Shown here piece after piece: positions 48,509 through 63,565 of a stretch of 64,000 nucleotides of DNA. Below the pieces are notes generated by a model. The model searched no databases and was not told the DNA's origin. It saw only the letters and a program-made list of their open reading frames with translations. The DNA is from Shewanella aestuarii (lineage in GTDB: Bacteria > Pseudomonadota > Gammaproteobacteria > Enterobacterales > Shewanellaceae): NCBI RefSeq assembly GCF_011765625.1, contig NZ_CP050313.1, forward strand, positions 3,034,501 to 3,098,500. Direction: 5' to 3'. The position numbers and the translations under genes are program-made. Position 1 is the stretch's first letter, and each line of letters opens with the position of its first letter.

Positions 48509-50056
48509 ATGCAATTGAACCAGATGACAGTGTTGATTATTGAAGACATGGATGCGCTGCGTCAAATAATGATGGAGCAATTACGTCAACATGGTTTTGG
48601 TCGTGTATTACAGGTAGAAAACAGCCGCCGAGCAATAGAAACACTCGAAAATAATGACGTCAATATTGTCCTGTTAGACTGGCTAATGCCCGGTGGTAAT
48701 GGGCTTGATGTATTGCAAACTATGCGTTCAAGCCCGAGGTGGCATTCAATACCTGTCATTTTAGTCACCGCCAATACTAATAGAGACATGGTTAAGCAAG
48801 CCATTAAATACAATGTTTCCAACATTATCGCTAAACCCTTTACTGCTAAAACCCTGCAAACAAGAGTGTTACAAGCCTTAAAGGCTGAGCGCAAAAATCT
48901 GTTTGAACAGCTTGCGCCCAAAGAAGTGGATGAAGTGCCCGCCCCCCCAGTGATGGATGAAAAAAACAGCATTTTAATTGTCGATGACATTCCTGATAAC
49001 TTATCTTATCTAGTGGGTTTATTAAAAGATGATTACCGAATTCGTTTTGCCAAAAACGGCGCAGCAGCGTTAAAAATTTGCCAATCGCCAACCCCACCCG
49101 ATCTAGTACTACTGGATATCATGATGCCAGATATGGACGGCTACCAAGTGCTCAAAGCCATGCGAGAACATCCACAGTCAGACCAAATCCCTGTGGTGTT
49201 TGTGACCGCACTCACTCAACTAGAAAATCAGTTAGCAGGTTTAAGAGGTGGAGCTGTTGATTATATTACCAAGCCGGTTCAGCCTGATATTTTAAAGTTA
49301 AGAGTCAAAAACTTATTAGCCACCGTCAATTTACAGCGCGACCTGCAAGCAAACTATGACAACATGTTAGCAATGGCGAAGTTAAAAGACAGCGTTGAAG
49401 ATATTGTCCATCACGACTTAAAAGGCCCTTTGGTTGCGATAAGCACGATGGCAGAACGGATCGCTCAAGATAAGAGCTACCCGAAAGAGTTACACACCAA
49501 AATTAACCTTATTGAAGAAATGGCGCAACAATCCATCAATACGATTAGCCTTTTTTCAGTGTTATATCGAATTGAAACTGGCCGTTTTCAATTAAAAGCC
49601 GAGCGATTCTCTATTCATCATGTCATTAAACGGATTTTGAATGTGATGCATGTGACCTTTCGTCACAAACAACTTGTTGCTTACCAACTTCCTGATGAGG
49701 ATCCTAATCAAGAATTTGATGTGATGGGCGATCCGATTTTAACTTATTCACTGCTATTAAATTTGATCAAAAATGCCTTTGAAGCAGCTAAAATGCGAAC
49801 CAAAGTTGCAATTCACTGCGAACAAAAAGATGCCATGATCAGCATCAAAATAGAAAACTCTGGCGTTATTCCCGAAGAAATACGCGATACATTTTGGGAT
49901 AAATATGTGTCGTCCGGTAAACCCAATGGCTCAGGCTTAGGAACATATTCCGCCAAAATGCTTACACAAGCCCAAGGAGGTAATGTTCGTTTCTCCGTTG
50001 ATGACTTACAAAATCTCACCACCATTTTTGTTTCATTACCGATAGCTAATCCGTAA
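48509..50056 (+). CDS. Dual receiver protein with C-terminal histidine kinase
   Basis: This 515-aa cytoplasmic protein has receiver 1 (Asp57, VLLDWLMPGG), receiver 2 (Asp203, VLLDIMMPDMDGY), a HisKA-like helix with His302 (HHDLKGPLVA) and an HATPase domain (LIKNAFEAAK, GSGLGTYSAKML). It can both receive phosphate, probably from the Hpt domain of the preceding kinase, and autophosphorylate, so it may integrate two relays. It has no DNA-binding or enzymatic output domain. It is translationally close (4-base gap) to the hybrid kinase. A hairpin follows. Confidence 0.9.
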   Translation: MQLNQMTVLIIEDMDALRQIMMEQLRQHGFGRVLQVENSRRAIETLENNDVNIVLLDWLMPGGNGLDVLQTMRSSPRWHSIPVILVTANTNRDMVKQAIKYNVSNIIAKPFTAKTLQTRVLQALKAERKNLFEQLAPKEVDEVPAPPVMDEKNSILIVDDIPDNLSYLVGLLKDDYRIRFAKNGAAALKICQSPTPPDLVLLDIMMPDMDGYQVLKAMREHPQSDQIPVVFVTALTQLENQLAGLRGGAVDYITKPVQPDILKLRVKNLLATVNLQRDLQANYDNMLAMAKLKDSVEDIVHHDLKGPLVAISTMAERIAQDKSYPKELHTKINLIEEMAQQSINTISLFSVLYRIETGRFQLKAERFSIHHVIKRILNVMHVTFRHKQLVAYQLPDEDPNQEFDVMGDPILTYSLLLNLIKNAFEAAKMRTKVAIHCEQKDAMISIKIENSGVIPEEIRDTFWDKYVSSGKPNGSGLGTYSAKMLTQAQGGNVRFSVDDLQNLTTIFVSLPIANP

Positions 50057-50099
50057 TATCGCAGAGAAAATAACCGCAAAACCACAACTAGTCAGTCAT

Positions 50100-50132
50100 G
50101 GCACTTTGCTCAAATAGTTTGAGCCAAGTGCC
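50100..50132 (+). other. Hairpin after the signalling operon
   Basis: GGCACTT-T-GCTCAAA and TTTGAGC-C-AAGTGCC pair with one mismatch around TAG. There is no T-tract, so it is a weak terminator or a processing hairpin. Confidence 0.5.
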
Positions 50133-50166
50133 TCTCAGCAATAAGTGTCGACGTAACGCAAATAAC

Positions 50167-50181
50167 CTGACATACATCACA
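50167..50181 (-). promoter_or_regulatory. CRP-like box 1 upstream of hyaA
   Basis: On the minus strand TGTGATGTATGTCAG fits TGTGA-N6-TCACA with an exact first half and TCAG in the second. The same 16-base string recurs 65 bases downstream. Confidence 0.5.
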
Positions 50182-50231
50182 ATAAATTAGTGTGTTAGCT
50201 AATCTCTTATCCGTAGCTCAGGTTAAATAAT

Positions 50232-50246
50232 CTGACATACATCACA
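50232..50246 (-). promoter_or_regulatory. CRP-like box 2 upstream of hyaA
   Basis: This is an exact repeat of the first box (CTGACATACATCACA on plus). A weaker third copy (TCTACATCACAA, 50296-50307) lies about 60 bases on, so three related sites are spaced at roughly six helical turns. Confidence 0.5.
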
Positions 50247-50352
50247 AAATTTTTTTACAAAGGACAAAATGTCCAATTGACTCGACAAAACTCGATCTAC
50301 ATCACAATTAACAACTACCAAATAAAGCAATAACACACCATCGTATAAACAA

Positions 50353-50366
50353 TTGATTTGCATCAA
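50353..50366 (+). promoter_or_regulatory. Perfect FNR/EtrA box upstream of hyaA
   Basis: TTGATTTGCATCAA matches TTGAT-N4-ATCAA at all ten fixed positions. A candidate -10, TAATAT, lies 22 bases downstream (50389-50394), the spacing of a class II FNR promoter. Anaerobic activation of the hydrogenase operon follows by inference. Confidence 0.8.
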
Positions 50367-50448
50367 ATCGAAGCAAGCTAAGTCTACTTAATATTGTATC
50401 CAATGGATAAAAATTAACCCATAGTGTCAATGATTAGAAGGTTAGCTT

Positions 50449-51585
50449 ATGGATACCCATGCAGCGCTCTTTGAGCAAGGCAAAAAGCGTCTTGAATACT
50501 TACGCCAATTTGCCCCAAGACAGCAGATCACTTTAGAACAAAAAATGGCTGAAAATGGAATTAGTCGCCGAGATTTCATTAAATGGAGCGCTGCGGTCAC
50601 CGCCATGCTGGCACTGCCTCTCCCCTTTAGTAACTTGGTTGCACAAGCCGCTGAGCTGGCCGACAGAGTGCCGTTAATTTGGCTACATATGGCCGAATGC
50701 ACAGGCTGCTCAGAATCACTTATCCGTACCGACACCCCTAATCTAGACAGCCTCATTTTTGACCATATCTCTCTTGAATATCACGAAACATTAATGGCTG
50801 CAGCAGGCTGGCAAGCAGAAGAAAACCTTGAACATGCTTTAGAAGCCTACCAAGGTCGCTACCTACTTGCTGTAGAAGGTGCGGTGCCCACCGCCAACAA
50901 TGGCGCTTATCTCACCGTGGGCTGTAAAGGTCACACAGGTTTGCATATTGTTAAACAAGCGGCCCAAGGTGCTGCTGCCATTATCTCGGTAGGAACTTGT
51001 GCAGCATTTGGTGGAATTCAAGCCGCTTCACCTAACCCGACAGGGGCTAAAGGCGTCCATGAAGTTGTTGATAAACCAGTAATCAACTTGGGAGGATGCC
51101 CACCGAGTGAGAAGAACATTGTTGGCACACTGATGTACTTCATCATGTTTGGCAAATTACCAGCTTTAGACATGTTTAACCGCCCTAAATGGGCCTATGG
51201 CGCTCGGGTACATGATAACTGTGAACGTCGTGGTCGTTTTGATGCTGGTGAATTTGTTGAAACCTTTGGCGATCATGGTGCTAAAGAAGGCTACTGCCTC
51301 TACAAAGTTGGCTGTAAAGGCCCTTACACCTATAACAACTGCCCAACTGAACGCTTCAACCATCATACCAGCTGGCCTGTATTAGCTGGACACGGTTGTA
51401 TGGGCTGTTCTGAACCGAATTTTTGGGATGACATGGCCGACTTTGAACGGCCACTTGGACGACAATTATTACATGGCATAGATGCAACCGCTGACACCGT
51501 TGGAGCAGTCATTTTAGGTGCCACAGTTGTTGGGATTGGCGCACACGCCGTTGCCAGTTTATTTGCTAAGCCATTGGAGGAATAA
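50449..51585 (+). CDS. hyaA: [NiFe]-hydrogenase small subunit, Tat-exported
   Basis: This 378-aa electron-transfer subunit has a Tat signal (SRRDFIKWSA, arginines 40-41). Cluster ligands are visible: CTGC (84, 87), GTCAAFGG and GGCPPSE for the proximal cluster, and HDNCERRGRF, CLYKVGCKGP, NNCPTERFN and HGCMGCSE for the medial and distal clusters. A C-terminal hydrophobic anchor (GAVILGATVVGIGAHAVASLF) is present. The two extra proximal cysteines of O2-tolerant enzymes are glycines here (CTGC, FGGI), so an O2-sensitive type is expected. It is the first gene of the operon, 2 bases before hyaB. Confidence 0.97.
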   Translation: MDTHAALFEQGKKRLEYLRQFAPRQQITLEQKMAENGISRRDFIKWSAAVTAMLALPLPFSNLVAQAAELADRVPLIWLHMAECTGCSESLIRTDTPNLDSLIFDHISLEYHETLMAAAGWQAEENLEHALEAYQGRYLLAVEGAVPTANNGAYLTVGCKGHTGLHIVKQAAQGAAAIISVGTCAAFGGIQAASPNPTGAKGVHEVVDKPVINLGGCPPSEKNIVGTLMYFIMFGKLPALDMFNRPKWAYGARVHDNCERRGRFDAGEFVETFGDHGAKEGYCLYKVGCKGPYTYNNCPTERFNHHTSWPVLAGHGCMGCSEPNFWDDMADFERPLGRQLLHGIDATADTVGAVILGATVVGIGAHAVASLFAKPLEE

Positions 51586-51587
51586 TC

Positions 51588-53291
51588 ATGAGTAAACGAG
51601 TCGTTATTGATCCCATCACTCGTATTGAAGGTCACTTACGTGTTGAAGTGGAAGTCGACGAAAATAACAAAATCACCAAGGCTTGGTCATCATCTACCTT
51701 ATGGCGCGGTATTGAAGTTATCTTAAAAGGCCGAACCCCAATGGATGTTGGGCTTATTGTGCAACGTATTTGTGGGGTATGTACTTATTCGCATTATCGC
51801 TGTGGTACCGAGGCCGTTGAAAATGCTCTTGGAGTTAAAATCCCACTGAATGCCAAATATTTACGTAGCTTGATGCAATCATCACTTTATATGCATGATC
51901 ACATAGTGCATTTTTATCACTTACACGGTTTAGACTGGGTTGATGTGGTGTCGGCATTAAGTGCCGATCCTGCGGTTGCGGCACAAGTTGCCTTACAATA
52001 CACAGACAAACCGATCGCCGCCGGTGAAGGCGAGTTACGCGCGGTACAAGAGCGTGTTAAAGGGTTTGTTGAAACCGGTAAATTAGGTCCTTTTGCTAAC
52101 GCTTATTGGGGTAATGGCACCTATAAGTTTACCCCTGAACAAAACCTTATTGCCCTATCTCACTACTTAAAAGCACTTGAAGTACAACGTGTTGCGGCGG
52201 AAATGCTCGCCATCTTTGGCGGTAAATCACCGCATCCACAATCAATTGTTGTGGGTGGTGTAACCTCAGTGCGCGACATGTTAAGCCCAGCGCGTCTACA
52301 AGAATGGAAGCAAAAACACGCTATTGTTCAAGACTTTATTGAACGCGCCTATCAAGCCGACATCGTTATGGCAGCCGAAGCCTTTGGCAATGAACCGAGT
52401 GTATTAGGCGGGGTTAATGTGAGTAACTTCTTATGCACTAACGATTTTATCATGGCTGATGGTGAATACCTGTTTGAGCAAGGTGTCATTATGAACGGTG
52501 ATTTAGCAGGCGTTAGCGATATTGACCCAAGCAAAATCAAAGAAGATGTTACCCACGCTTGGTACAAAGCAGAAGGTGCTCAACATCCCTACGATGGAAC
52601 CACGGTCCCTGATTACACCGGCTTTGTTGAACGCGATACGGTTTATGGCAAATTACCCACCCTTGATGGAGACGGCAAATACTCTTGGGTCAAATCACCT
52701 CGTTACCAAGATGAACCGGTTGAAGTTGGGCCGCTGTCTTGCTTATTAGTCAACTATGCCCGTGGTAACTCAATCGTTGTGGATGCGGTAAATGGCTTAT
52801 TAGCCCGTACCGGCTTGCCAATTGGTGCCTTATTTACCACTTTAGGCCGAACCGCAGCGCGTATGTTGCAAACCGTATTGGTGGGTCAAGCTAGTTTACG
52901 CACGTTTGATGCGCTGTTAACTAACATGCAATCCGATGAAACCACTTATGTCACGCCTGATATAGACCCAAACAAAGAATACGTTGGCCACGCCATGAAC
53001 GAGGCGCCTCGCGGTATGCTAAGTCACTGGATCAGAATTAAAAATGCCAAAGTTGAAAACTATCAAGCCGTAGTGCCAACCACTTGGAATGCCGGTCCTG
53101 TCGATGCCAATGGTAAAATGGGCCCCTATGAAGCTTCCTTGATTGGCTTGCAACTCGAAGATCCAACTAAACCACTTGAAGTTATTCGAATTATCCACTC
53201 GTTTGACCCATGTATGGCATGTTCGGTACACGTGATGGATTACAAAAAACAAACCTTAGGTCAGTTCAAAATTGACCCCAACGGTTTTTAA
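51588..53291 (+). CDS. hyaB: [NiFe]-hydrogenase large subunit
   Basis: This 567-aa protein carries the Ni-Fe active site. The N-terminal ligands are RICGVCTYSH (Cys62, Cys65) and the C-terminal ligands DPCMACSVH (Cys542, Cys545), which end at His548, the expected cleavage point. A 19-residue tail beyond His548 is the extension removed by the HyaD protease after nickel insertion. RIEGHLRVEVEVD and the other group 1 signatures are intact. It has no signal peptide and is exported with HyaA by the Tat system. The ribosome site GGAGGAAT is strong. Confidence 0.98.
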   Translation: MSKRVVIDPITRIEGHLRVEVEVDENNKITKAWSSSTLWRGIEVILKGRTPMDVGLIVQRICGVCTYSHYRCGTEAVENALGVKIPLNAKYLRSLMQSSLYMHDHIVHFYHLHGLDWVDVVSALSADPAVAAQVALQYTDKPIAAGEGELRAVQERVKGFVETGKLGPFANAYWGNGTYKFTPEQNLIALSHYLKALEVQRVAAEMLAIFGGKSPHPQSIVVGGVTSVRDMLSPARLQEWKQKHAIVQDFIERAYQADIVMAAEAFGNEPSVLGGVNVSNFLCTNDFIMADGEYLFEQGVIMNGDLAGVSDIDPSKIKEDVTHAWYKAEGAQHPYDGTTVPDYTGFVERDTVYGKLPTLDGDGKYSWVKSPRYQDEPVEVGPLSCLLVNYARGNSIVVDAVNGLLARTGLPIGALFTTLGRTAARMLQTVLVGQASLRTFDALLTNMQSDETTYVTPDIDPNKEYVGHAMNEAPRGMLSHWIRIKNAKVENYQAVVPTTWNAGPVDANGKMGPYEASLIGLQLEDPTKPLEVIRIIHSFDPCMACSVHVMDYKKQTLGQFKIDPNGF

Positions 53292-53322
53292 TTTGGCTGG
53301 ATGACTTAAATAAGGAGGGTTT

Positions 53323-53988
53323 ATGGCACACACAGCAACCCACACACGACATTTGATATTTACCCCAGCCATTCGGATTTTCCATTGGTTACGGGCACTG
53401 GCGATTTTAGTGCTTGTGGTAACAGGGTTTTATATCTCATGGCCGTTTTTGGTAGCGCCTGAATCAACCGATGTATTGGTTCAAGGTTGGATCCGTTTTG
53501 CACATATTGTGTTTGGTTTTGTTCTCACAGCCGTTACCTTAGTCCGTTTTTATTTGTTTTTCTTTAGTCGCAATAATATTGAAAGACGATCATTTAAAGA
53601 CGTCATGAGCGTTAACAGTTGGATAGTACAATTAAAGTCTTATCTTTGGATGGGACATTTAAATAAAGCAGGAGTTTATGGGCCACTGCAGTTTGTGACT
53701 TACGTCGCAATCTCATTGATGGCTTTGTTTATTTGCATTACAGGCTTAGTACTTTATGCCAATGTTTATCACTTAGGCTTAGGCGGCATGCTGTGGGAAA
53801 GCGCGGCATGGATAACAGCTCAAATGGGCGGTTTAGCCAAGGTGAGAATTTGGCATCACTACCTAACGTGGACATTTATTGTGTTTGTGGTTATTCATGT
53901 TTACATGGCGGTTTGGTCAGGTATTCGCTTCAAACAAAACTCAGTAGACTCCATTGTATCTGGATATGATTACCACAAGGAACATTAA
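53323..53988 (+). CDS. hyaC: Ni/Fe-hydrogenase cytochrome b subunit
   Basis: This 221-aa di-heme membrane protein anchors the hydrogenase and passes electrons to the quinone pool. Four to five TM helices are visible. Probable heme histidines are in AIRIFHWLRALAIL, RFAHIVFGFVL and IWHHYLTWTFIVFVVIHVYM. The length fits HyaC/HydC (about 220-240 aa). The ribosome site AAGGAGGG is nearly perfect. It lies 31 bases after hyaB and 5 before hyaD. Confidence 0.95.
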   Translation: MAHTATHTRHLIFTPAIRIFHWLRALAILVLVVTGFYISWPFLVAPESTDVLVQGWIRFAHIVFGFVLTAVTLVRFYLFFFSRNNIERRSFKDVMSVNSWIVQLKSYLWMGHLNKAGVYGPLQFVTYVAISLMALFICITGLVLYANVYHLGLGGMLWESAAWITAQMGGLAKVRIWHHYLTWTFIVFVVIHVYMAVWSGIRFKQNSVDSIVSGYDYHKEH

Positions 53989-53993
53989 CCTGA

Positions 53994-54560
53994 GTGAGTA
54001 AAATATTACTATTAGGTATTGGTAATGTTTTGTACGCCGATGAAGGTATCGGCGTACATTTTACCAATTATATCAAAGACAAATATACCTTCACTCACCC
54101 TAGCCATCAGTTAGACATCATGGATGGCGGCACCCTTGCGCAAGGGCTCATTCCAATTATTTGCCAGTATGATCAGTTGATTGTGGTTGATACCGTTAAC
54201 AGCGCCCAAGCCAAAGCCGGTGAGGTGTTCTTTTTTGATTTTGACCATGCACCCGCTGAGATTGACTGGCAAGGCAGCGCACATGAAGTAGAAATGCTGC
54301 AAACCCTCACCATGATGGATATGGTTGGCGACCGCCCGCAAACCCAGGTATTAGGTGTTATTCCCACCGTTATCGTCCCTATGACACTCGGCTTAACTGA
54401 CGCCCTTTATGCCGCAGTGCCAACCATGGAAAAAACCTTGATAAATTATCTATCCGCATTAGGTTTTAGCCTGTCACAAGACGATGCTGTCAGCATTGAT
54501 TTAGTGATTCCCGATGCTTATAAACGAGGTCACGAAGATGAACCACTGCATCCAATTTGA
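53994..54560 (+). CDS. hyaD: Hydrogenase maturation protease
   Basis: This 188-aa endopeptidase clips the C-terminal extension of HyaB once nickel is in place. The hallmark LLLGIGNVLYADEGIGVHF supplies the Glu that senses nickel (DEGIG), and DGGTLAQGL and VVDTVNSAQ carry the other acidic residue region. The start is GTG at 53994. The 3' end overlaps the start of the next gene by 23 bases, which suggests translational coupling. Confidence 0.95.
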   Translation: MSKILLLGIGNVLYADEGIGVHFTNYIKDKYTFTHPSHQLDIMDGGTLAQGLIPIICQYDQLIVVDTVNSAQAKAGEVFFFDFDHAPAEIDWQGSAHEVEMLQTLTMMDMVGDRPQTQVLGVIPTVIVPMTLGLTDALYAAVPTMEKTLINYLSALGFSLSQDDAVSIDLVIPDAYKRGHEDEPLHPI

Positions 54561-56349
54561 ATTCATATGTAGTCAACCTGTGGCGCTTTATGGTCATTTA
54601 TGCCACCAATATGTGGACCGAAAGGCCATTGACATTCGCGCTGCGCAGTTTACTGATGAACAACATAATACCCATTACCTACTAGAAGCCTTCGCTGAGC
54701 AAGCCCAATTAGAACAACTAGCAGAAGAGATTGCTGAAGACTTTTTATTATCGGTTTGGCTGATAGATACTCGCATTCAGCGAGTTGAGCACAAACAATA
54801 TCCACAGTCATCTTTGAGTCTTACCAAGCCAACGCCCTATGCTCCACTGCCTTATTGTCAACACTGCCAACCCTTATTTGGCGATAACCAAAGCCAGCAG
54901 TTTGCCAATATCAATTTAGCTTGCTCGCACTGCCATGGCGAGACTAAGTTATCAGTGGCGCAGAAGTCATTAAGCGAACAAGACATTTTTGCCTTCGCAG
55001 ATTTACTGCTTAATAACAGTACCTTACATTTACCCGATGACAATATGACATTGTCACTGGCCTTGCCATTAAGTGCCAAAGACCGACCCAGTATTATTGT
55101 CTGTAACCCGAATGATCTAAATGGCTACTTTCATTTAAGCGATCATCAAGTACTGGCCTTATCTAGCATTGAAAAACCCTGCATCACTTTAATGACCAAT
55201 GACACAGGTAAAGCCCATTTTAAAACGGCATTGGTTGATGTGCAGTTTGCCAGTAATCGTTTATTAGTTATTTTGACCGAAAAACTGCGCCAACGAGGCA
55301 TTAACTGGCTGTATTCACATTCAAATCCACCCGGTGAACACCATGGAAACCCGCCACTGAAGCTAGCACGATTAGCGGAGCAATGGATAGCAAAGCAACA
55401 AGTAAAAGCGGGCCAGTGTGAGGTATTATTTAATCCATTACATGATGAAGCCATCTCACAAATCGCCAATATTAACTACTGTGCCACTAGCATAGATAAA
55501 CAGGTTAGCTGGAGCGCAATTCACACCGAACACAAGCAAGTATTACCTGAGTCACACGCCGCCCAATGTGCTTTATTGGCAGGGCTACAAACCATGTCAC
55601 CGCCTAACCCATGCAAAAAAGCTAAACACGCAGCGATATTATTTTTTAGCTATTATCAAGCCAGTCAAATTTTAGCCTTAGACAAAGAAGGTAACGCCGA
55701 GCTATTTTTTGAAATGGCCAATATTCCTAACTCGGGTTATGAAATTTGCCACCAGCTCAGCCAGAGTCGTGAAAGCGGTTTACTGGATAAATTTAAACAA
55801 ATGTATCCCGACAGCTACAACGCCTTATTAGATATCGAGCTAACTTCTCACACTAAATCACTGACCAGTTTAATGGCCGTGGCCGCAGCCATCATCGGCT
55901 GTCGGGTGTATCACGATGCGCCTGAATCTATCACACAACAATTAGCTGATAGCTTTATTGCCGACGCCATGGGATTTAATGGGGCCAATGCCCCCCGTAT
56001 TGATTTCCCGCTGACTAAAGGCGAAGCCTATCGCAGCCTGAATTGGTGCAAAACCTTAGGCACCCTGATGAGCTTTCGCATTGCCGGTGAAACCGATACC
56101 AGCAAGCTTGCCTTTGCCTTTCATGACTCTTTGGCCGACTACCTCAGCAATTGGATTGAGCACCTAGACAAAAATATCGGCATCAAGCACTTAGTGTTAG
56201 CGGGCAGTGAGTTTGACAACCCAGTGTTAGCCAAGCGTATCCAAATGCGAGTCGGCAAAAATACCCCTTTAGTGATCAACAAGCAATTAGACTTAGAAGG
56301 CGCTAACTTGGCGGTTGGTGGGATATTCCTTCGTCAACGACGCCGCTAG
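54538..56349 (+). CDS. Degenerate HypF paralogue of unknown role
   Basis: This protein of about 603 aa aligns by eye with HypF over most of its length but lacks the catalytic parts. It has one zinc finger (PYCQHC, Cys107/110, then CSHC, Cys129/132; the C-x2-C-x18-C-x2-C spacing of HypF). A YrdC-like segment contains ALSSIEKPCITLM, where HypF has VLSSAEKPITVM. A C-terminal Kae1-like domain has FAFHDSLADYLSNW and LVLAGSEFDNPVLA in place of HypF's VFSGGVFQNK. The acylphosphatase motif GVGFRP, the Kae1 HHYSH pair and the DGTG loop are missing. ATG 54538 (GAGGT upstream) is preferred to 54514. It sits between hyaD and hypF, so a scaffold or chaperone role is inferred. Confidence 0.72.
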   Translation: MNHCIQFEFICSQPVALYGHLCHQYVDRKAIDIRAAQFTDEQHNTHYLLEAFAEQAQLEQLAEEIAEDFLLSVWLIDTRIQRVEHKQYPQSSLSLTKPTPYAPLPYCQHCQPLFGDNQSQQFANINLACSHCHGETKLSVAQKSLSEQDIFAFADLLLNNSTLHLPDDNMTLSLALPLSAKDRPSIIVCNPNDLNGYFHLSDHQVLALSSIEKPCITLMTNDTGKAHFKTALVDVQFASNRLLVILTEKLRQRGINWLYSHSNPPGEHHGNPPLKLARLAEQWIAKQQVKAGQCEVLFNPLHDEAISQIANINYCATSIDKQVSWSAIHTEHKQVLPESHAAQCALLAGLQTMSPPNPCKKAKHAAILFFSYYQASQILALDKEGNAELFFEMANIPNSGYEICHQLSQSRESGLLDKFKQMYPDSYNALLDIELTSHTKSLTSLMAVAAAIIGCRVYHDAPESITQQLADSFIADAMGFNGANAPRIDFPLTKGEAYRSLNWCKTLGTLMSFRIAGETDTSKLAFAFHDSLADYLSNWIEHLDKNIGIKHLVLAGSEFDNPVLAKRIQMRVGKNTPLVINKQLDLEGANLAVGGIFLRQRRR

Positions 56350-56384
56350 ACTTAGTGATGCCCAAGGCAAATAAGGAACCCTAT

Positions 56385-58762
56385 ATGGCATTTGAACAGG
56401 TCAACATATTTGTGAATGGTATTGTTCAAGGTGTGGGCTTTCGGCCATTTGTGTATCGGCTTGCCCATGAATTGTCACTCACCGGCAGTGTGCTTAATGA
56501 TCACCGTGGTGTCAGCATTGTGCTGCAAGGCGAGCCCACCAACATCAATCATTTTTTACACCAATTAGAGCACTCGCCACCACCACTTGCGCGTATTGAT
56601 GCCATTAAAACTGACTACCATATTGTTGAACAACCTATTAGGACGTTTTCAATTATTGAAAGCGACAAAGGCAACGAGCACGCCATTGTTGCCCTATCGG
56701 CAGATAAAAGTACTTGCCAAGATTGCCTAGCAGAAATGCACGATCCGACTAATCGTCATTATCAATATCCTTTTACAAACTGCACCAATTGCGGGCCCCG
56801 CTACAGCATTATTAACGCCTTACCTTACGACCGCCACAACACTTCAATGGCAGGCTTTGATATGTGTGACCAATGCGCAGCGGCATACACCAACCCTATG
56901 GATAGACGCTACCATGCCCAGCCTGTCAGTTGCCCAAATTGCGGCCCCAAATTGAGCTTACAATTAGTCGAACATCAGCTTGAACCATTTACATTCAGCG
57001 TTCACGAGTCGGAGCAGCAAAGCAATCAACAGGTCATCAAGCAAACGGCTACACTGTTAGCCCAAGGCAAAATTATTGCGATAAAAGGTTTAGGTGGCTT
57101 TCACCTCATTTGCGATGCGACCAATAGCAACGCCGTCAATTTACTCAGACAACGCAAACAACGCCCCGCCAAACCTTTAGCCGTTATGGTGAATAACCTT
57201 GTACAAGCACAAACGCTGGTACAAGGCACACAAGCGGAATGGGATGTGTTATCTAGCGCAGAAAAGCCGATCACGGTGATGCAAAAAAAATCAGCCGTCA
57301 GCGAATTATTAAGTGATGCTGTTGCCCCACAAATAGATAGATTAGGCCTATTTTTACCTTATACCCCCTTACATGTTTTATTAATGGCCGCATTTAATCG
57401 CCCCATTGTGGCCACTAGCGCTAACCGAAGTGGCGAGCCAATTATTTGTGATGGTAAGCAACTACTTGATAATTTAGGCCATGTAATTGATGCCATGGTT
57501 GACCATGACCGCCCCATTATTAACGCCTGTGATGACAGTGTGGTACAAGTGATCAATGGCCAACTGCAAGTGATCCGCCTTGCCAGAGGCTATGCCCCGC
57601 TCACCTTACCAACGGGAAACATCAAACTGCAAAATAACACTGTACTTGCCGTTGGCGGCCAGCAAAAAAATGCCATTGCGTTTGGGTTTGATCGCAACTT
57701 AATTCTCTCGCCTCACATTGGCAACTTATACAGCCTTGAAGCACAAATGTACTTTGAGCGTAGCCTAGCGACCTTTAAACGTTTATACGATTTCACCCCT
57801 CCACAGTGATCAGCGACAAACACCCTGATTACGCACCAAGCCGCTGGGCACAGCAATATTGCCAACAGCATAAAACCGTAAAGCAGCAACAAGTACAGCA
57901 CCATTACAGCCATATTCTTGCCACTATGGCCGCCAATCAATACCAGCAAACCGTATTGGGGTTTAGTTATGATGGCACAGGCTTAGGTGATGATGGCTCG
58001 CTTTGGGGCAGCGAAGTCATGCTAGCGGATACTCAAGGTTATCGAACCCTCGCTCACTTTACGCCGTTTAAACTGATTGGTGGCGAACAAGCTATTAAGC
58101 AACCTGTGCGTATTTTATTAGCCTTACTATTTGCGCATTTTAGCCTTGCTGATATTCGTCGCTTACCGATTCATGCCATTAATCAACTCAGTGACACACA
58201 ACTGACTAACCTGCATATTTTATGGAAAAATACCAATCATGGGGTGTATTGCCGCTCAGTCGGTCGCTTATTTGACGCCCTTGCCGTAGCGTTAAATCTA
58301 ATACAAACGAATCAATTTGAAGGCCAAGCAGGCATGTTGGTCGAAGCTCAAGCGGCTTTGAACCAGCACGCCTTAATTGCCTCAAGTTTTCAAAACAAGC
58401 TGACTATTAAGCCGATTATCGACAACAGCACAGGCATTACCCAGTGGGATAGCCAAGATTTGTTCAAGCAGATTATTGATACGATTCAAACAGGCGAAAA
58501 TCAGCCACAATTACAACAAGCCTTATGTGATGCGTTTATTCAAGCTATCGCAAATGCCTCGTTATCATTGGCGCAACAGTACCCTCAATATCCCTTGGTA
58601 TTCAGTGGCGGCGTATTTCAAAATAAATGCTTATTAAGTCTATGTTTAACCCAAGCCAAGCAAAACCATCATCAAGTGCTGCCAAGTCATCAAGTACCAA
58701 TTAATGATGGTGGCTTAGCATTAGGCCAGCTGTGGTATAGCATTCATCAAAACAGCCTGTAA
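56385..58762 (+). pseudogene. hypF: Carbamoyltransferase HypF, frameshifted (two frames)
   Basis: HypF makes the cyanide ligands of the hydrogenase Fe site from carbamoyl phosphate. Frame one (from ATG 56385, AAGGA upstream) holds the acylphosphatase domain (VQGVGFRPFVY), two zinc fingers (CQDC/CTNC and CDQC/CPNC) and the YrdC domain, and stops at 57809. Frame two continues from about 57800 with HPDYAPSRW, the Kae1-like HHYSH metal site, SYDGTGLGDDGSLWGSE and FSGGVFQNK. One extra C in the C4 run at 57796-57799 restores a 792-aa protein of normal length. The break is probably a sequencing error; a genuine split is the alternative. Confidence 0.85.
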
Positions 58763-58862
58763 ATGGATAGATCTCATTAATATCACCAAACCCCAAAATT
58801 GATCTAAGCAAGGCCAAGCAGTTACCAAAATGACTCACCAAAAGGCGAAGCCCCTCTTTAAA

Positions 58863-58878
58863 TGAGATGTAAATCACA
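58863..58878 (+). promoter_or_regulatory. CRP-like box upstream of hypB
   Basis: TGAGATGTAAATCACA matches TGTGA-N6-TCACA at 9 of 10 fixed positions, 119 bases before the hypB start in the 234-base gap after hypF. It suggests that hypBCDEA has its own cAMP-CRP-responsive promoter. Confidence 0.6.
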
Positions 58879-58996
58879 CATTAACATTCAAAAATGTCAT
58901 TCGGCTAAAAAGTCTTTCAAACCTGACATCAATCAAGGTTTGTAAGCGAAATATCACGCATACTTTAACAATAAATCATAGTTATGGAATTTGATT

Positions 58997-59752
58997 ATGT
59001 GCCAGGATTGCGGTTGTTCTATCACCCATGACCATCATCATGACTCACTGCATACTAACCCGCAGTTGAATGATAAAAAAACCTTATCGGTTATTCATAA
59101 AATATTGGATAAAAACGATATTGAAGCCCAGCACAATCGTGAGCATTTCGAAAAGCATCACGTGTGTGCATTCAACTTAATGAGCAGCCCAGGTAGCGGT
59201 AAAACCACCCTATTAGAACACCTTTGTCAGTATACGGATTTACATTATGCGGTAATTGAAGGTGATCTAGAAACCTCTCGCGATGCCGACCGCCTCATCG
59301 CCAAAGGCATTAATGCTTATCAAATTCAAACCGGCTCAGCCTGTCATTTAGACGCATTTATGGTTCATGGTGCCTTGCATCATATTGACCTTGCACCACT
59401 GGACATTTGCTTTGTTGAAAACGTAGGCAACTTGGTTTGCCCAGCAAGCTACGATGTCGGCACCCATAAAAATATTGTTCTGCTTTCTGTGCCAGAAGGC
59501 GATGACAAAATAGAAAAATACCCCGTTATGTTCCGCCGCGCTGATCTGGTGCTTATCACCAAAGCGGATCTCATAGCGCATTTTGACTTCAGCATCGACA
59601 GCGCTAAGCAACAGTTAGCCAAGCTCAACCCTCATGCACAAATTATGACCATTTCGGTCAAACAACCTGAGTCGTTATTGCCACTCATTGATTGGCTGGC
59701 TACCAAATACGCTGCGCTGAACCAAGAATCTCAAGCCACACACAAGAGATAA
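58997..59752 (+). CDS. hypB: Hydrogenase nickel incorporation GTPase HypB
   Basis: This GTPase of about 251 aa, with HypA, inserts nickel into the large subunit. The N-terminus has the high-affinity nickel motif MCQDCGC followed by a short His run (HDHHHD). The P-loop is SPGSGKTT (residues 64-71), followed by EGDLETSRDADR (switch and metal region), and the base-recognition motif ITKAD is present. The His stretch is short compared with nickel-storing HypB types. The start ATG 58997 puts MCQDCGC at the N-terminus as in E. coli. Confidence 0.97.
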   Translation: MCQDCGCSITHDHHHDSLHTNPQLNDKKTLSVIHKILDKNDIEAQHNREHFEKHHVCAFNLMSSPGSGKTTLLEHLCQYTDLHYAVIEGDLETSRDADRLIAKGINAYQIQTGSACHLDAFMVHGALHHIDLAPLDICFVENVGNLVCPASYDVGTHKNIVLLSVPEGDDKIEKYPVMFRRADLVLITKADLIAHFDFSIDSAKQQLAKLNPHAQIMTISVKQPESLLPLIDWLATKYAALNQESQATHKR

Positions 59753-59762
59753 GGACAAAACT

Positions 59763-59999
59763 ATGTGTTTATCGGTTCCTTCTCAAGTTGTTGAAGTTCA
59801 CGATGATGCCAGTGTTACAGTTGACACCCTGGGCGTAAAAAGACGTGTCAGTAGTCACTTGATCACAGACCCATTAGCCATTGGCGATTATGTGTTAATT
59901 CACATCGGTTTTGTGATGAACAAGATTGATCAGCAAGACGCCCAAGAAAGCTTGGCACTCTATCAAGAAATCGTCGAAAAAATGTCTGAGCAGGAGTAA
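59763..59999 (+). CDS. hypC: Hydrogenase assembly chaperone HypC
   Basis: This 78-aa chaperone starts with the essential MCLSVPSQVVE motif, in which Cys2 binds the Fe(CN)2CO unit and the large-subunit precursor. It works with HypD and hands the iron centre to HyaB. The length fits the HypC/HybG family. The ribosome site AAGGA is 7 bases upstream. It lies 10 bases after hypB and 7 before hypD. Confidence 0.97.
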   Translation: MCLSVPSQVVEVHDDASVTVDTLGVKRRVSSHLITDPLAIGDYVLIHIGFVMNKIDQQDAQESLALYQEIVEKMSEQE

Positions 60000-60006
60000 C
60001 TCTCTA

Positions 60007-61134
60007 ATGCTGCTAAAGGATTTATATCAAGGGTTTCGTGATCCTGACACCTTACACCACCTTGCTAAAGCCATTGCACTTGAGGCGAAAAAAGTCACTG
60101 GCGATGTCAACATTATGGAAGTGTGTGGTGGCCATACTCATACCATAATGAAGTATGGCTTATTACAGTTACTGCCCGCCAATATTCGTTTTATTCACGG
60201 ACCCGGTTGTCCGGTTTGCATTATGCCCAAAGAGCGCATTGATCATGCCGCAGCGCTGGCCAGTATGCCCAACGTTATTTTAGTCAGTCTTGGCGATATG
60301 ATCCGCGTTCCCGGCTCAAATGGCAGTTTGGCAAAGTTTCGCTCTCAAGGCTGCGATATTCGCCCAATATACGACCCGTTAGACACCCTAGTGATCGCCA
60401 AAGATAATCCCGACAAAACCGTGGTATTTTTTGCTATTGGCTTTGAAACCTCAACCCCAATGACCGCAGTGTTAGTTGAGCAAGTGATCAAGCAACAACT
60501 TGATAATGTTATATTTCATATCAACCATGTGCTTGTGCCCCCTGCCATTGATGCGGTAATGGCCGAACCAAACACCAAAGTAAACGCCTTTATTGGTCCT
60601 GCGCATGTTAGCGTGATCAGCGGTGCCAAAATTTACCAAGCCGCAGTCAATAACTACCACACCCCTGTGGTGGTATCGGGTTTTGAGCCTGTTGATGTCA
60701 TGGAATCGATTCTAAAAATTGTGACTCAAAAAGCCCAAGGCAAAGCCGAACTCGAAGTGCAATACAGTCGCGCCGTTAGCTATGACGGCAATCAAGCAGC
60801 GCAGCAGTTAGTGAATAAATACTTTCAAGTCAGTCCTGAGTTTAGGTGGCGCGGTTTAGGTCCCATCGCTCAGTCAGCCTTACAACTTAAACCTGAGTTC
60901 AGTCATTTAGATGCAGAAGTGCGCTACCAAGGTCGATTACCCGTTACCTTAATTGATGATCACAGAGCCTGTCAGTGTGGCGATATTCTACGAGGTTTAG
61001 CCAACCCCAAAGACTGCAAAGTATTTGGCCGAGGCTGCACACCAGAAACCCCGCTTGGCAGTTGTATGGTGAGCTCTGAAGGCGCCTGCAACGCCTATTA
61101 TCGTTATGGTGGTTTAAACGAGGAGCAAAGGTAA
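60007..61134 (+). CDS. hypD: Hydrogenase formation protein HypD
   Basis: HypD, 375 aa, is an Fe-S scaffold on which the Fe(CN)2CO centre is built. The conserved blocks are MEVCGGHTHTIMKYG, GPGCPVCIMP, GFETSTP and the C-terminal cysteine set (CQCGDIL, CKVFGRGCTPETPLGSCMVSSEGAC) that holds the [4Fe-4S] cluster. The start is ATG 60007 (AGGAG upstream); an in-frame start at 59926 would run far into hypC and is rejected. Confidence 0.97.
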   Translation: MLLKDLYQGFRDPDTLHHLAKAIALEAKKVTGDVNIMEVCGGHTHTIMKYGLLQLLPANIRFIHGPGCPVCIMPKERIDHAAALASMPNVILVSLGDMIRVPGSNGSLAKFRSQGCDIRPIYDPLDTLVIAKDNPDKTVVFFAIGFETSTPMTAVLVEQVIKQQLDNVIFHINHVLVPPAIDAVMAEPNTKVNAFIGPAHVSVISGAKIYQAAVNNYHTPVVVSGFEPVDVMESILKIVTQKAQGKAELEVQYSRAVSYDGNQAAQQLVNKYFQVSPEFRWRGLGPIAQSALQLKPEFSHLDAEVRYQGRLPVTLIDDHRACQCGDILRGLANPKDCKVFGRGCTPETPLGSCMVSSEGACNAYYRYGGLNEEQR

Positions 61135-61138
61135 ACCT

Positions 61139-62149
61139 ATGACAAAATCATTAAAAACCGTGCAGCTTAGCCATGGTGGTGGCGGCAAAGAAATGGACCA
61201 ACTGATTAAGTCAGTGTTTTTTGAAGCCTTTAACAACCCTATTCTTTGCAGTGAAGAAGATGCAGCGAAATTGCATTTGTCGGGTCCTGTCGCCTTTACC
61301 ACAGACTCGTTCACCGTAGCGCCGCTATTTTTTGCGGGTGGTAATATCGGCAAACTGGCCATTGCAGGCACGGTCAATGATTTAGCCATGATGGCTGCCC
61401 AGCCCGAATATTTAAGTTGCAGTTTTATCATTGAAGAAGGCTTTGCCATTGATGACTTAGTTACCATAGTCAACAGCATGGCAGCAGAGCTTCATCAGTC
61501 AGGGGCGCGCATCGTGTGTGGCGACACCAAAGTCGTTCCTAAAGGCTGCGCCGATGGGCTGTTCATTAACACCACAGGCATAGGGCGGATTATTTACCCA
61601 GATGTGTCAGCAAACAATATTGTTGCCGGTGATGCCATTATTGTGTCCCGCGATATTGGCCGTCATGGAGCCACAATTTTAATGGCGCGCGAAGGCTTAG
61701 CGTTAGAGTCTGAACTGACCAGCGACTGCGCCACGCTATGGCCGATAGTCGAGCAACTCATTGCCGCTAACATCCCCATTCACGCCATGCGTGATGCAAC
61801 TCGCGGAGGTTTATCGGCTGTGCTAAATGAGTGGGCCAAAGCTTCAAATATTGGGATTGATGTCAATGAGTCAGCCATTCCGGTTGCGGATGAAGTAAAA
61901 GGCTTATGCGAGCTATTTGGCTTTGAACCCTTTGACCTAGCCAATGAAGGCACCTTTATTATTGCCCTGCCACAGGCAATTGCACAAGGCGCCATTGAAG
62001 TGATGCAGCGATACGGCCATTGCCAACAGGCTGCCATTATTGGTCATGCAACATCGGCACACAGTGGCAAAGTGGTATTAACCACACCTTGGGGCAGCCA
62101 TCGCTACCTTGACTTACCTCAAGGTGAATTACTGCCAAGGATTTGCTAA
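61139..62149 (+). CDS. hypE: Hydrogenase maturation dehydratase HypE
   Basis: HypE, 336 aa, dehydrates the S-carbamoyl group on its C-terminal cysteine to thiocyanate, the CN donor. The C-terminus is LLPRIC, exactly the conserved PRIC end with the acceptor Cys last. The ATP-binding AIR-synthase fold shows [29 protein letters not shown] and GDTKVV. It receives carbamoyl from HypF. The stop codon overlaps the hypA start. Confidence 0.97.
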
Positions 62150-62496
62150 TGCACGAGTATTCAATTGTCAGCGCATTAATCGAGCAGTGCGAAGACCTAG
62201 CCAAACAACATCAAGCCAACGCGATTCGCAGGGTTGAGGTAAAAATAGGCATATTAAGTGGCGTTGAGCCCGCACTGTTATCGCAAGCATTTGAAACATT
62301 TAAATTAGATGGCATTTGCGCCAATGCCACATTCAACATGCATATTCAGCCCTTGCTGTTGATGTGCAACCAATGTGGTATCGAGTCAGAGCAAACTGCT
62401 AGAACGGTGATTTGCCCACACTGCCAAAGCAATGACACCCGCATTATGGATGGCGAAGACATGATGCTAATGCAATTAGAAATGGATACCGAATAA
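62149..62496 (+). CDS. hypA: Hydrogenase nickel insertion protein HypA
   Basis: HypA, 115 aa, is a nickel chaperone that partners HypB. The N-terminal MHEYS motif contains the nickel ligand His2, and a zinc ribbon follows (CNQC near residue 74 and CPHC near residue 92). The start ATG shares a base with the hypE stop (TAATG), which gives translational coupling. The MHEYS variant replaces the usual MHELS. Confidence 0.97.
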
Positions 62497-62570
62497 ACGA
62501 CTTTACCGGTTAATTGATGTCAATCACATTGGTATTAGCCAATAGAAAACACAACGTATAAGGAACGAAC

Positions 62571-62741
62571 ATGAGAAACACAATCGCGGCGTTAGCACTA
62601 GCAAGTACACCAACGTTAGCCTTAGCCCATGAAGGCCATGGGGCAGTCGGGTTATTTCATCACTTAATGGATTTAGCACCCGCCATTGCATTAGTTGCCG
62701 TTGTGGCGTTCATTGTGTACAAGCGTGCCAACAAAAGTTAG
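62571..62741 (+). CDS. Small HEGHG membrane protein at the end of the hyp operon
   Basis: This 56-aa protein has a signal peptide (MRNTIAALALASTPTLALA) cut before HEGHG, then a mid-section with two histidines (GLFHHLMD) and one TM helix (APAIALVAVVAFIVYK) with a basic end. Ribosome site AAGGA lies 8 bases before ATG. It is 74 bases after hypA with no terminator between. Four or five histidines in a mature protein of about 37 residues suggest metal binding on the periplasmic face, perhaps nickel, given the operon. This is inferred from composition and place only. Confidence 0.65.
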   Translation: MRNTIAALALASTPTLALAHEGHGAVGLFHHLMDLAPAIALVAVVAFIVYKRANKS

Positions 62742-62776
62742 TTAACCAAAAAGGTTAGCGATTGAGAGGAAAATGG

Positions 62777-63565
62777 CTAAGGAAGCGCATCATAGGTTTG
62801 CCTAACCTGCGCTTCACCGTATTGTCGCTCTAGCTTACGCACAATAAAATGGCCTCTGGCCATATCCTGAAAATGATCAATAAATAACGTATTGATCATT
62901 GCTCCACCCGCTGCACCAATTGCGGGGACAGCTTGTGCTGCTATTTTTTGGGTTACTTGCACACCAAAGCGCTCGGCCACAATGGTTACCACTTTCACCA
63001 TCATAGGGGCGGCTTCTTTACTAAAACCTTTGGTGGCGATATATTGAGCCGACTCTGCGATAGAATTAGCCAGCACGGTACGCACCGCAAAATAGCCCTT
63101 TTCAGCTTGGTCGTCGTCAGTTGATTCACCACCAAACGCAAACACTTCTAAACAGGCCATTTTCGTAGAAAGATCGTTAAGCTGCTCGCCCTCACTACGG
63201 GCAATATCCGCAATAGAACGCAACATAATGGTGGTAGAAATAGGCAGCTCGATGGCCAATGCACTTAATCCAAAAAATCCGCCAACACCGCCACTTACCG
63301 CAACCCCAAGCTTATACCACTTATTCGATGATGGGGTATGCTGCGCATCTTTTAAGGTAAACAGCGCCGCATCAACGGCTTTGGTTAATGCCATTTCTGT
63401 CACTTTACCTATGCCGTTACTGATAGATTTAGGCAACAAAGCAAACCCTTGCTCAATGGGCTTGCCGATTAAATCAGTCATTTTGGCTGCAAGACCCGGA
63501 TTTTCCAGTAATTGTTTAGCTTGAATAAGCTGCTGTGTATCTGCTGCGGATAAGTTCAACGTCAC
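62777..63565 (-). CDS. EcsC-family protein
   Basis: This protein of about 262 aa matches the EcsC family (first named from the Bacillus ecs operon; function unknown). Features are a helical N-terminus, a glycine-rich hydrophobic part (VAVSGGVGGFFGLSALAIELP), ISTTIMLRSIADIARSEGE and a late AQAVPAIGAAGGAMINTLFIDHFQ. It is probably membrane-associated. The GTG start at 63565 is very close to its AGGAG; a TTG two codons later has better spacing. It is convergent with the hydrogenase operon. Confidence 0.88.
   Translation of the reverse strand: MTLNLSAADTQQLIQAKQLLENPGLAAKMTDLIGKPIEQGFALLPKSISNGIGKVTEMALTKAVDAALFTLKDAQHTPSSNKWYKLGVAVSGGVGGFFGLSALAIELPISTTIMLRSIADIARSEGEQLNDLSTKMACLEVFAFGGESTDDDQAEKGYFAVRTVLANSIAESAQYIATKGFSKEAAPMMVKVVTIVAERFGVQVTQKIAAQAVPAIGAAGGAMINTLFIDHFQDMARGHFIVRKLERQYGEAQVRQTYDALP

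Follow-up and report, generated by a model that had tools for sequence, protein, structure and literature searches.

The analysed stretch of DNA, here called the window, comprises 64,000 nucleotides (nt) of the genome of Shewanella aestuarii and harbors a set of [NiFe] hydrogenase genes in the order hyaA-hyaB-hyaC-hyaD-X-hypF, followed by hypB, hypC, hypD, hypE and hypA. The subject of this study is the gene X (54538 to 56349, forward strand), which encodes a protein of 603 amino acids. It was recognized as a relative of HypF with catalytic residues lost by its intact open reading frame (ORF), a match to the family HypF_C_2, a profile alignment and an AlphaFold model. Taken together, our results make it probable that X is an old pseudoenzyme related to HypF and dedicated to the assembly of membrane-bound uptake [NiFe] hydrogenases of one clade.

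The hydrogenase genes of the window

All genes described here are located on the forward strand. The genes hyaA to hyaD and hypF were named by family matches, and the labels hypB to hypA represent a reading of the ORFs. The small subunit HyaA (50449 to 51585) carries a twin-arginine translocation signal (TIGR00391, PF10518), and the large subunit HyaB (51588 to 53291) matches PF00374 with 676 bits. These are followed by hyaC for the b-type cytochrome (53323 to 53988; TIGR02125 above cut-off) and hyaD for the maturation protease (53994 to 54560). HyaD exceeds the cut-offs of PF01750 and TIGR00072, yet its highest score (137 bits, TIGR00140) stays below the cut-off of 152 for that family. The ATG start codon of X at 54538 lies within the last codons of hyaD, which stops at 54560, and a second in-frame ATG is located upstream at 54514; the stop of X is at 56349.

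Downstream of X, the hypF gene of the window consists of two overlapping ORFs (56355-57809 and 57806-58762) with the break at 57790-57815. The first part (56388 to 57809) corresponds to positions 2-445 of TIGR00143 and its frame stops at 57809, and the second (57806 to 58762), in a different frame, corresponds to positions 449-738. In the loci of relatives, the neighbouring hypF forms a single frame of more than 650 codons in 59 of 61 cases. The break may be genuine or an assembly error, and because of it the operon of this genome may be impaired or not fully active. The original prediction, made from the sequence by eye, had described an active-looking operon; the split hypF corrects this for the present genome. 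A scan of positions 50000-63000 with Rfam gave no match.

Relationship of X to HypF

The protein can be divided into four parts. Residues 1-84 (54538 to 54789) form a ferredoxin-like domain of the acylphosphatase type without the GVGFRP motif, and residues 107-132 (54856 to 54933) a single zinc finger C-x2-C-x18-C-x2-C, the four cysteines of which are present in 77 of 77 X sequences. A shortened YrdC-like domain follows (residues 139-295; 54952 to 55422), including the block LSSIEKP (55159 to 55179), which is aligned to L268-P274 of Escherichia coli HypF as anticipated by the original prediction. The remainder (residues 301-603; 55438 to 56346) is Kae1-like, with the C-terminal lobe best kept and the surface conserved near residues 480-545.

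Common descent of X with HypF was demonstrated by profile and structure comparisons. In Pfam, PF22521 (HypF_C_2) was the sole entry detected at E-values up to 1, with 31.1 bits (cut-off 27; E 2.7e-7) over residues 486-594. The score against the hypF family TIGR00143 was 20.2 bits, far below the cut-off of 466.1 bits, and BLASTP of X against the two HypF pieces of the window gave nothing significant. Profiles of 77 X and 49 HypF sequences were compared by hhalign, which aligned residues 91-602 of X with residues 142-741 of E. coli HypF over 478 columns (probability 97.2, score 99.9, E 2.8e-11); controls with the reversed HypF profile and with 20 column-shuffled ones scored 18.9 and at most 21.0, respectively. 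The similarity to HypF that had been proposed thus goes beyond chance. When insertion columns were dropped, only 176 C-terminal columns remained aligned (probability 92.8), so that the N-terminal part of the alignment is less certain by sequence.

The AlphaFold model of X (predicted local distance difference test 88, predicted template modelling score 0.88) aligns to HypF over residues 2-603, and its N-terminal half does so separately as well. The nine best Foldseek matches and the five best VIA-align rows were all HypF, and 3vti, a HypE-HypF complex, is represented among them by its HypF chain. The predicted model shows the HypF fold order of acylphosphatase-type domain, finger, YrdC and Kae1, the first domain being unspecific when taken alone. 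A search of solved structures by sequence found none for X, and the X profile gave one weak HypF match (E 0.3). The designation of X as a full-length HypF paralogue is correct with regard to domain order but not to length, as X falls short of the 750 amino acids of E. coli HypF by about 150. In addition, X differs from the HypF family by its score of 20 bits, by a single finger where HypF has two, and by the lack of GFRP.

Positions were regarded as HypF-invariant if identical in at least 96% of the 49 HypF sequences (106 positions), and as kept if conserved in at least 80% of the 77 X sequences. Of the 106 positions 61 align to X, and 13 of these are kept, namely C159, C162, C181, C184, L268, P274, P305, L306, D502, G696, N701, L704 and G733. 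The whole GVGFRP region and the first finger belong to the positions that differ in X or have no aligned counterpart, as do K243, R245, K248, S322, N324, H475, H476, H479, G503, G505, G507 and others; we take these changed positions (GVGFRP, K243/R245/K248, H476/H479 and others) to include catalytic residues. Motif counts in the 77 sequences gave no GFRP, no DGTG and no NDGG, and in the alignment H476 and H479 are each kept in a single sequence and H475 in 25, which confirms the reported loss of GVGFRP, the DGTG loop and the histidine pair. The blocks R[IV]D[FY] (76/77) and DS[LF][AT]D (77/77) are conserved in X without being HypF-invariant, and ALS[SA]xEKP is found in 70 of 77. Of the cysteines outside the finger, C22 and C189 are invariant in a 23-row X alignment; C189 is not kept in locus L072.

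Exactly one finger was found in every one of the 77 sequences and two in none, as the original prediction had stated for the X of the window. It had considered the second finger to be missing. One finger is indeed gone, but since the alignment pairs the surviving cysteines with C159, C162, C181 and C184, that is with the second HypF finger, it was probably the first which was lost. A weak alternative alignment pairs the finger of X with the first one of HypF.

Distribution and conservation of X

A scan of genome contigs with the X alignment, from which the best 80 of 89 relatives were kept, yielded 78 distinct loci belonging to Shewanella and Photobacterium. No relatives were obtained in an earlier scan of genome contigs with the X sequence alone, a third protein search revealed nothing outside the X family among the best candidates scored, and a plasmid search with a Photobacterium X gave no match. 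Database names of the members are ‘NiFe hydrogenase’, ‘Kae1-like domain-containing protein’ or ‘hypothetical protein’, and at least 3 of 93 homologues (UniRef or NCBI) are named ‘NiFe hydrogenase assembly chaperone HyaE’. A literature search found no paper describing X, and in PMC12727194 the word Shewanella is absent. For S. oneidensis, an excerpt of PMC7784907 gives SO_2096 as hyaD and SO_2093 as hypB; the locus tags between them leave room for two genes, so X would correspond to SO_2095 and hypF to SO_2094.

X is under purifying selection. An ORF of more than 540 codons is present in 76 of the 78 loci, and the ratio of nonsynonymous to synonymous substitution rates (dN/dS) in 27 independent close pairs ranges from 0.038 to 0.276 with a median of about 0.08, single values being rough because dS exceeds 1 in some pairs. 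For the same pairs, values of 0.078-0.227 were obtained for the N-terminal part of HypF where present, and mostly lower ones (0.008-0.128) for HyaB. Broken or split copies of X occur in the genomes G023 and G049 and at the loci L067 and L078. HyaB of G023 is likewise split in two; both genes may be decaying together there, or the assembly may be poor.

The gene neighbourhood is well conserved. Upstream of X, each of the 78 loci carries hyaA and hyaB, and in 75 the best-match distance from the end of hyaD to X is no more than 400 nt; the exceptions are L059, with 532 nt, and L078 and L079, where the best match spans only part of X. On the other side, hypF is located within 500 nt after X in 61 loci; its frame is not intact at L065, at L078 or in the window. 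In each of the 13 X genomes examined for it, a HypF above the family cut-off was detected alongside X. This search took in 11 of the 17 loci that lack hypF next to X and left out L046, L047, L049, L050, L051 and L072, of which four end near X. Among the genomes searched is that of Shewanella waksmanii (L015), where no hypF lies between X and hypB and a full HypF is encoded elsewhere; the notion of X as a stand-in for HypF is unsupported. Between hypF and hypB, S. decolorationis (L025) and Shewanella sp. ANA-3 (L061) carry about 4 kb extra, representing some insertion. Directly after X, a hypC-like gene was observed in L165 (G253), L169 (G488) and L072, and L169 has a further hypC in its hyp cluster upstream; the gene next to X may encode a hydrogenase-specific HypC.

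The occurrence of X coincides with that of one HyaB clade. In 60 genomes of the genus, taken from 99 relatives, X was present in 48; the same 48 carry HyaB of the window type and the other 12 have neither, which is the co-occurrence the original prediction had proposed to survey. A 49th match (G081) reached 24 bits and lies in a frame of HypF size. The genus survey shares genomes with a second survey of 394 genomes of the order, in which X was detected in 30: 25 of the genus, three of another genus of the family, and G443 and G488 from two other families (the 31st match, G335, is HypF). A HyaB-like gene (E up to 1e-60) was present in 67 of the 394, at 72-100% identity in 30 and at 40-48% in 37. 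The 30 genomes with HyaB of at least 72% identity are exactly the X genomes, whereas none of the 37 others contains X. In five loci fetched from other groups X is again located behind hyaD. Among 369 genomes of the class, X was confined to the window's own genome, and six other matches did not exceed 24 bits, of which four lie in frames of HypF size. When 274 genomes of the class were searched for HyaB, only the window's own was above 50% identity, and HypF exceeded its cut-off in 54 of 143.

The distribution of HybE (PF11939), which we take to be a hydrogenase accessory chaperone, is the reverse. It was found in none of the 30 X genomes and in 35 of the 37 genomes with other HyaB-like genes, the remaining two (G075, G420) having neither X nor HybE; a search of 36 genomes belonging to the window's genus gave no HybE. 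In three genomes compared (G090, G278, G424), the HybE gene is located near that of the large subunit. For HyaE (PF07449), a search of 60 genomes matched 29, of which 24 exceeded the cut-off of 22 bits, and 20 of these belong to the window's genus, where the best match reaches 30.8 bits, that of the window's genome 24.3 bits, and the frames comprise about 280-320 codons. These weak matches presumably represent another thioredoxin-like protein and were not counted as HyaE. The sole strong match (101.6 bits) came from G068, which is without X. With regard to the suggested absence of the usual chaperones, no strong HyaE match was obtained in the 36 genomes of the genus, although 20 of the 36 have one just over the cut-off.

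Proposed role of X and comparison with known systems

These data demonstrate that X has lost HypF-invariant residues, is kept by selection and is associated with the HyaB clade and the hyaD slot. X would have arisen from a catalytic HypF, retaining the fold order while losing the residues needed for carbamoyl transfer, and on account of this loss it would work by binding and not by catalysis. Its putative target is a maturation intermediate of HyaA/HyaB, which it would bind next to the HyaD protease in a step particular to this hydrogenase. Because X tracks HyaB and its gene adjoins that of the protease, action late in assembly or in targeting is favoured over the level of HypE-HypF. In this position X may fill the place which HybE takes for other uptake hydrogenases of the order, and it would belong with the hydE-slot protein of the hydABCDE operons of Campylobacterota. 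The retained non-catalytic role put forward originally is well supported by fold, by residue loss, by purifying selection and by the joint occurrence of X and one HyaB clade.

The Campylobacterota slot protein was encountered in a plasmid search with HyaB, which gave 102 records. The top scores among the 40 matches listed (587 and 577 bits) came from Sulfurimonas paralvinellae and Sulfurovum mangrovi. In Sulfurimonas, the gene for a ‘hypothetical protein’ of 641 amino acids is placed after the cytochrome gene and extends into the beginning of hypF; in Sulfurovum, that for a 641-residue protein follows the gene of a HyaD-type protease, and three short ORFs, one of them acylphosphatase-like, lie between it and hypF. 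The slot is that of X, after hydABC or hydABC-protease and before hypF. On both plasmids (L195, L196) a second hydrogenase set is annotated just upstream (‘hydrogenase’, ‘nickel-dependent hydrogenase large subunit’).

Both 641-residue proteins match the HypF fingers in Pfam (E 6.7e-15 and 8.8e-14), with HypF_C_2 matches below cut-off, and reach 83 and 86 bits against TIGR00143, far below its cut-off. They keep the eight cysteines of both fingers, whereas X has one finger, and 28 of 75 aligned HypF-invariant residues; identity to X is about 17%. GFRP, K243, R245, K248, H479, G503 and G505 are lost in common with X, and D727 is also missing from the 641-residue proteins. A model of X scored 89.8 and 76.8 bits on them, compared with 28.2 for the best of 50 HypF proteins and 4.4 for the best of 251 decoys. 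By hhalign, the profile of X matched that of the 641-residue proteins over 523 columns (probability 99.1, E 4.7e-19, score 152.1; ten shuffles at most 21.8), a comparison resting on two Campylobacterota proteins only. A scan of viral contigs with both of them gave no match.

A 30-row tree set apart 17 HypF, 11 X and two Campylobacterota rows, each group by a branch supported at 99-100. As this tree has no root and its inner branches are long, it does not show that X groups with the Campylobacterota rows. A recent duplication of Shewanella hypF was rejected, as X is placed outside the 17 sampled HypF proteins and has relatives in a second phylum. We tentatively propose, at somewhat less than even odds, that X and the Campylobacterota hydE-slot protein constitute one ancient family of HypF-derived pseudoenzymes providing clade-specific platforms for the assembly of uptake [NiFe] hydrogenases, a family that would have split from HypF before the sampled HypF proteins diversified.

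Several observations weigh against these interpretations. The 641-residue proteins match HypF equally well or better (87-89 bits with a HypF model; hhalign probability 99.7 and score 205.7 versus 152.1 with X); since both models match them, they stand between X and HypF and could be a separate HypF derivative. The co-occurrence with HyaB may reflect inheritance of the whole operon as a cassette, the genomes being related and not independent, and the same could equally account for the exclusion of HybE. Seventeen of the 78 loci showed no hypF next to X, and in the window X is not accompanied by an intact HypF, hypF being broken. Five genomes (G005, G037, G055, G456, G563) carry, on a single contig, two HyaB genes separated by about 4 kb, one 82-86% and the other 75-78% identical to that of the window, with a single X match, so that one X may serve two hydrogenases. 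The equivalent of D502 survives in 71 of 77 X sequences, and G696, N701, L704 and G733 in at least 72, which makes nucleotide binding possible. The literature search gave no interaction or mutant data for X.

An alternative that we regard as rather unlikely places X at the level of the cofactor, where it would bind HypE, HypE-HypF or HypC-HypD and steer or regulate the delivery of cyanide ligands to HyaB. HypE is the partner of HypF in an alpha2-beta2 complex according to an excerpt of a review (PMC12134894), X keeps the overall HypF fold, with the 3vti chain among the best matches of its model, and both X, in the 61 loci mentioned, and its Campylobacterota relative stand before hypF. A cofactor-level factor is harder to reconcile with the restriction of X to one HyaB clade, with the contrast in the class between HypF (54 of 143 genomes) and X (1 of 369), and with the fact that the most conserved regions of X differ from the HypF-invariant ones. 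That X has retained chemistry, binding a nucleotide or another carbamoylated ligand in an altered reaction, appears improbable: the surviving D502, G696, N701, L704 and G733 equivalents speak for it, as do C22 and C189 (the latter with its exception in L072), but GVGFRP, K243/R245/K248, S322/N324, H476/H479, G503/G505 and most other HypF-invariant positions are changed or unaligned. Decay of a functionless hypF duplicate, suggested by the loss of many HypF residues and part of the length and by the four broken or split copies, can practically be dismissed in view of 76 intact loci out of 78, the median dN/dS of about 0.08, the like slot in several families and the relative in another phylum.

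As a probable assembly factor, X can be compared with several known proteins. For HypF itself, the excerpted 2025 review of cofactor assembly (PMC12134894) names no paralogues, giving them for HypA and HypC; a HypF-turned binding protein tied to one hydrogenase clade would represent a new kind of specificity factor. If hydrogenases of this clade are produced in other hosts, omission of the X gene could explain failure. Concerning HydE, the hydrogenase genes of Helicobacter pylori are hydABCDE according to an excerpt of PMC4992972. For this organism, hydE is stated to be needed for hydrogenase activity with its function unknown, and Benoit 2004 is cited as the source; the HydE in an excerpt of PMC4794192 is that of [FeFe] hydrogenases and a mere name clash. 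If the 641-residue slot protein is HydE, a step suggested by gene order, X would belong to a family with a known requirement. X would also offer a testable origin for HydE, and the one-family reading, if true, would give hydE its fold, origin and mode of action.

With the chaperones, the resemblance lies in position and distribution. In E. coli, HyaE of hydrogenase 1 is encoded behind hyaD, and X has a like place here. HyaE (PF07449) and HybE (PF11939) are families of 108 and 147 positions, respectively, and X matches neither at E-values up to 1. The distribution of HybE is complementary to that of X, which fits the idea, already raised in the original prediction, that X replaces a usual chaperone, but would equally result from cassette inheritance.

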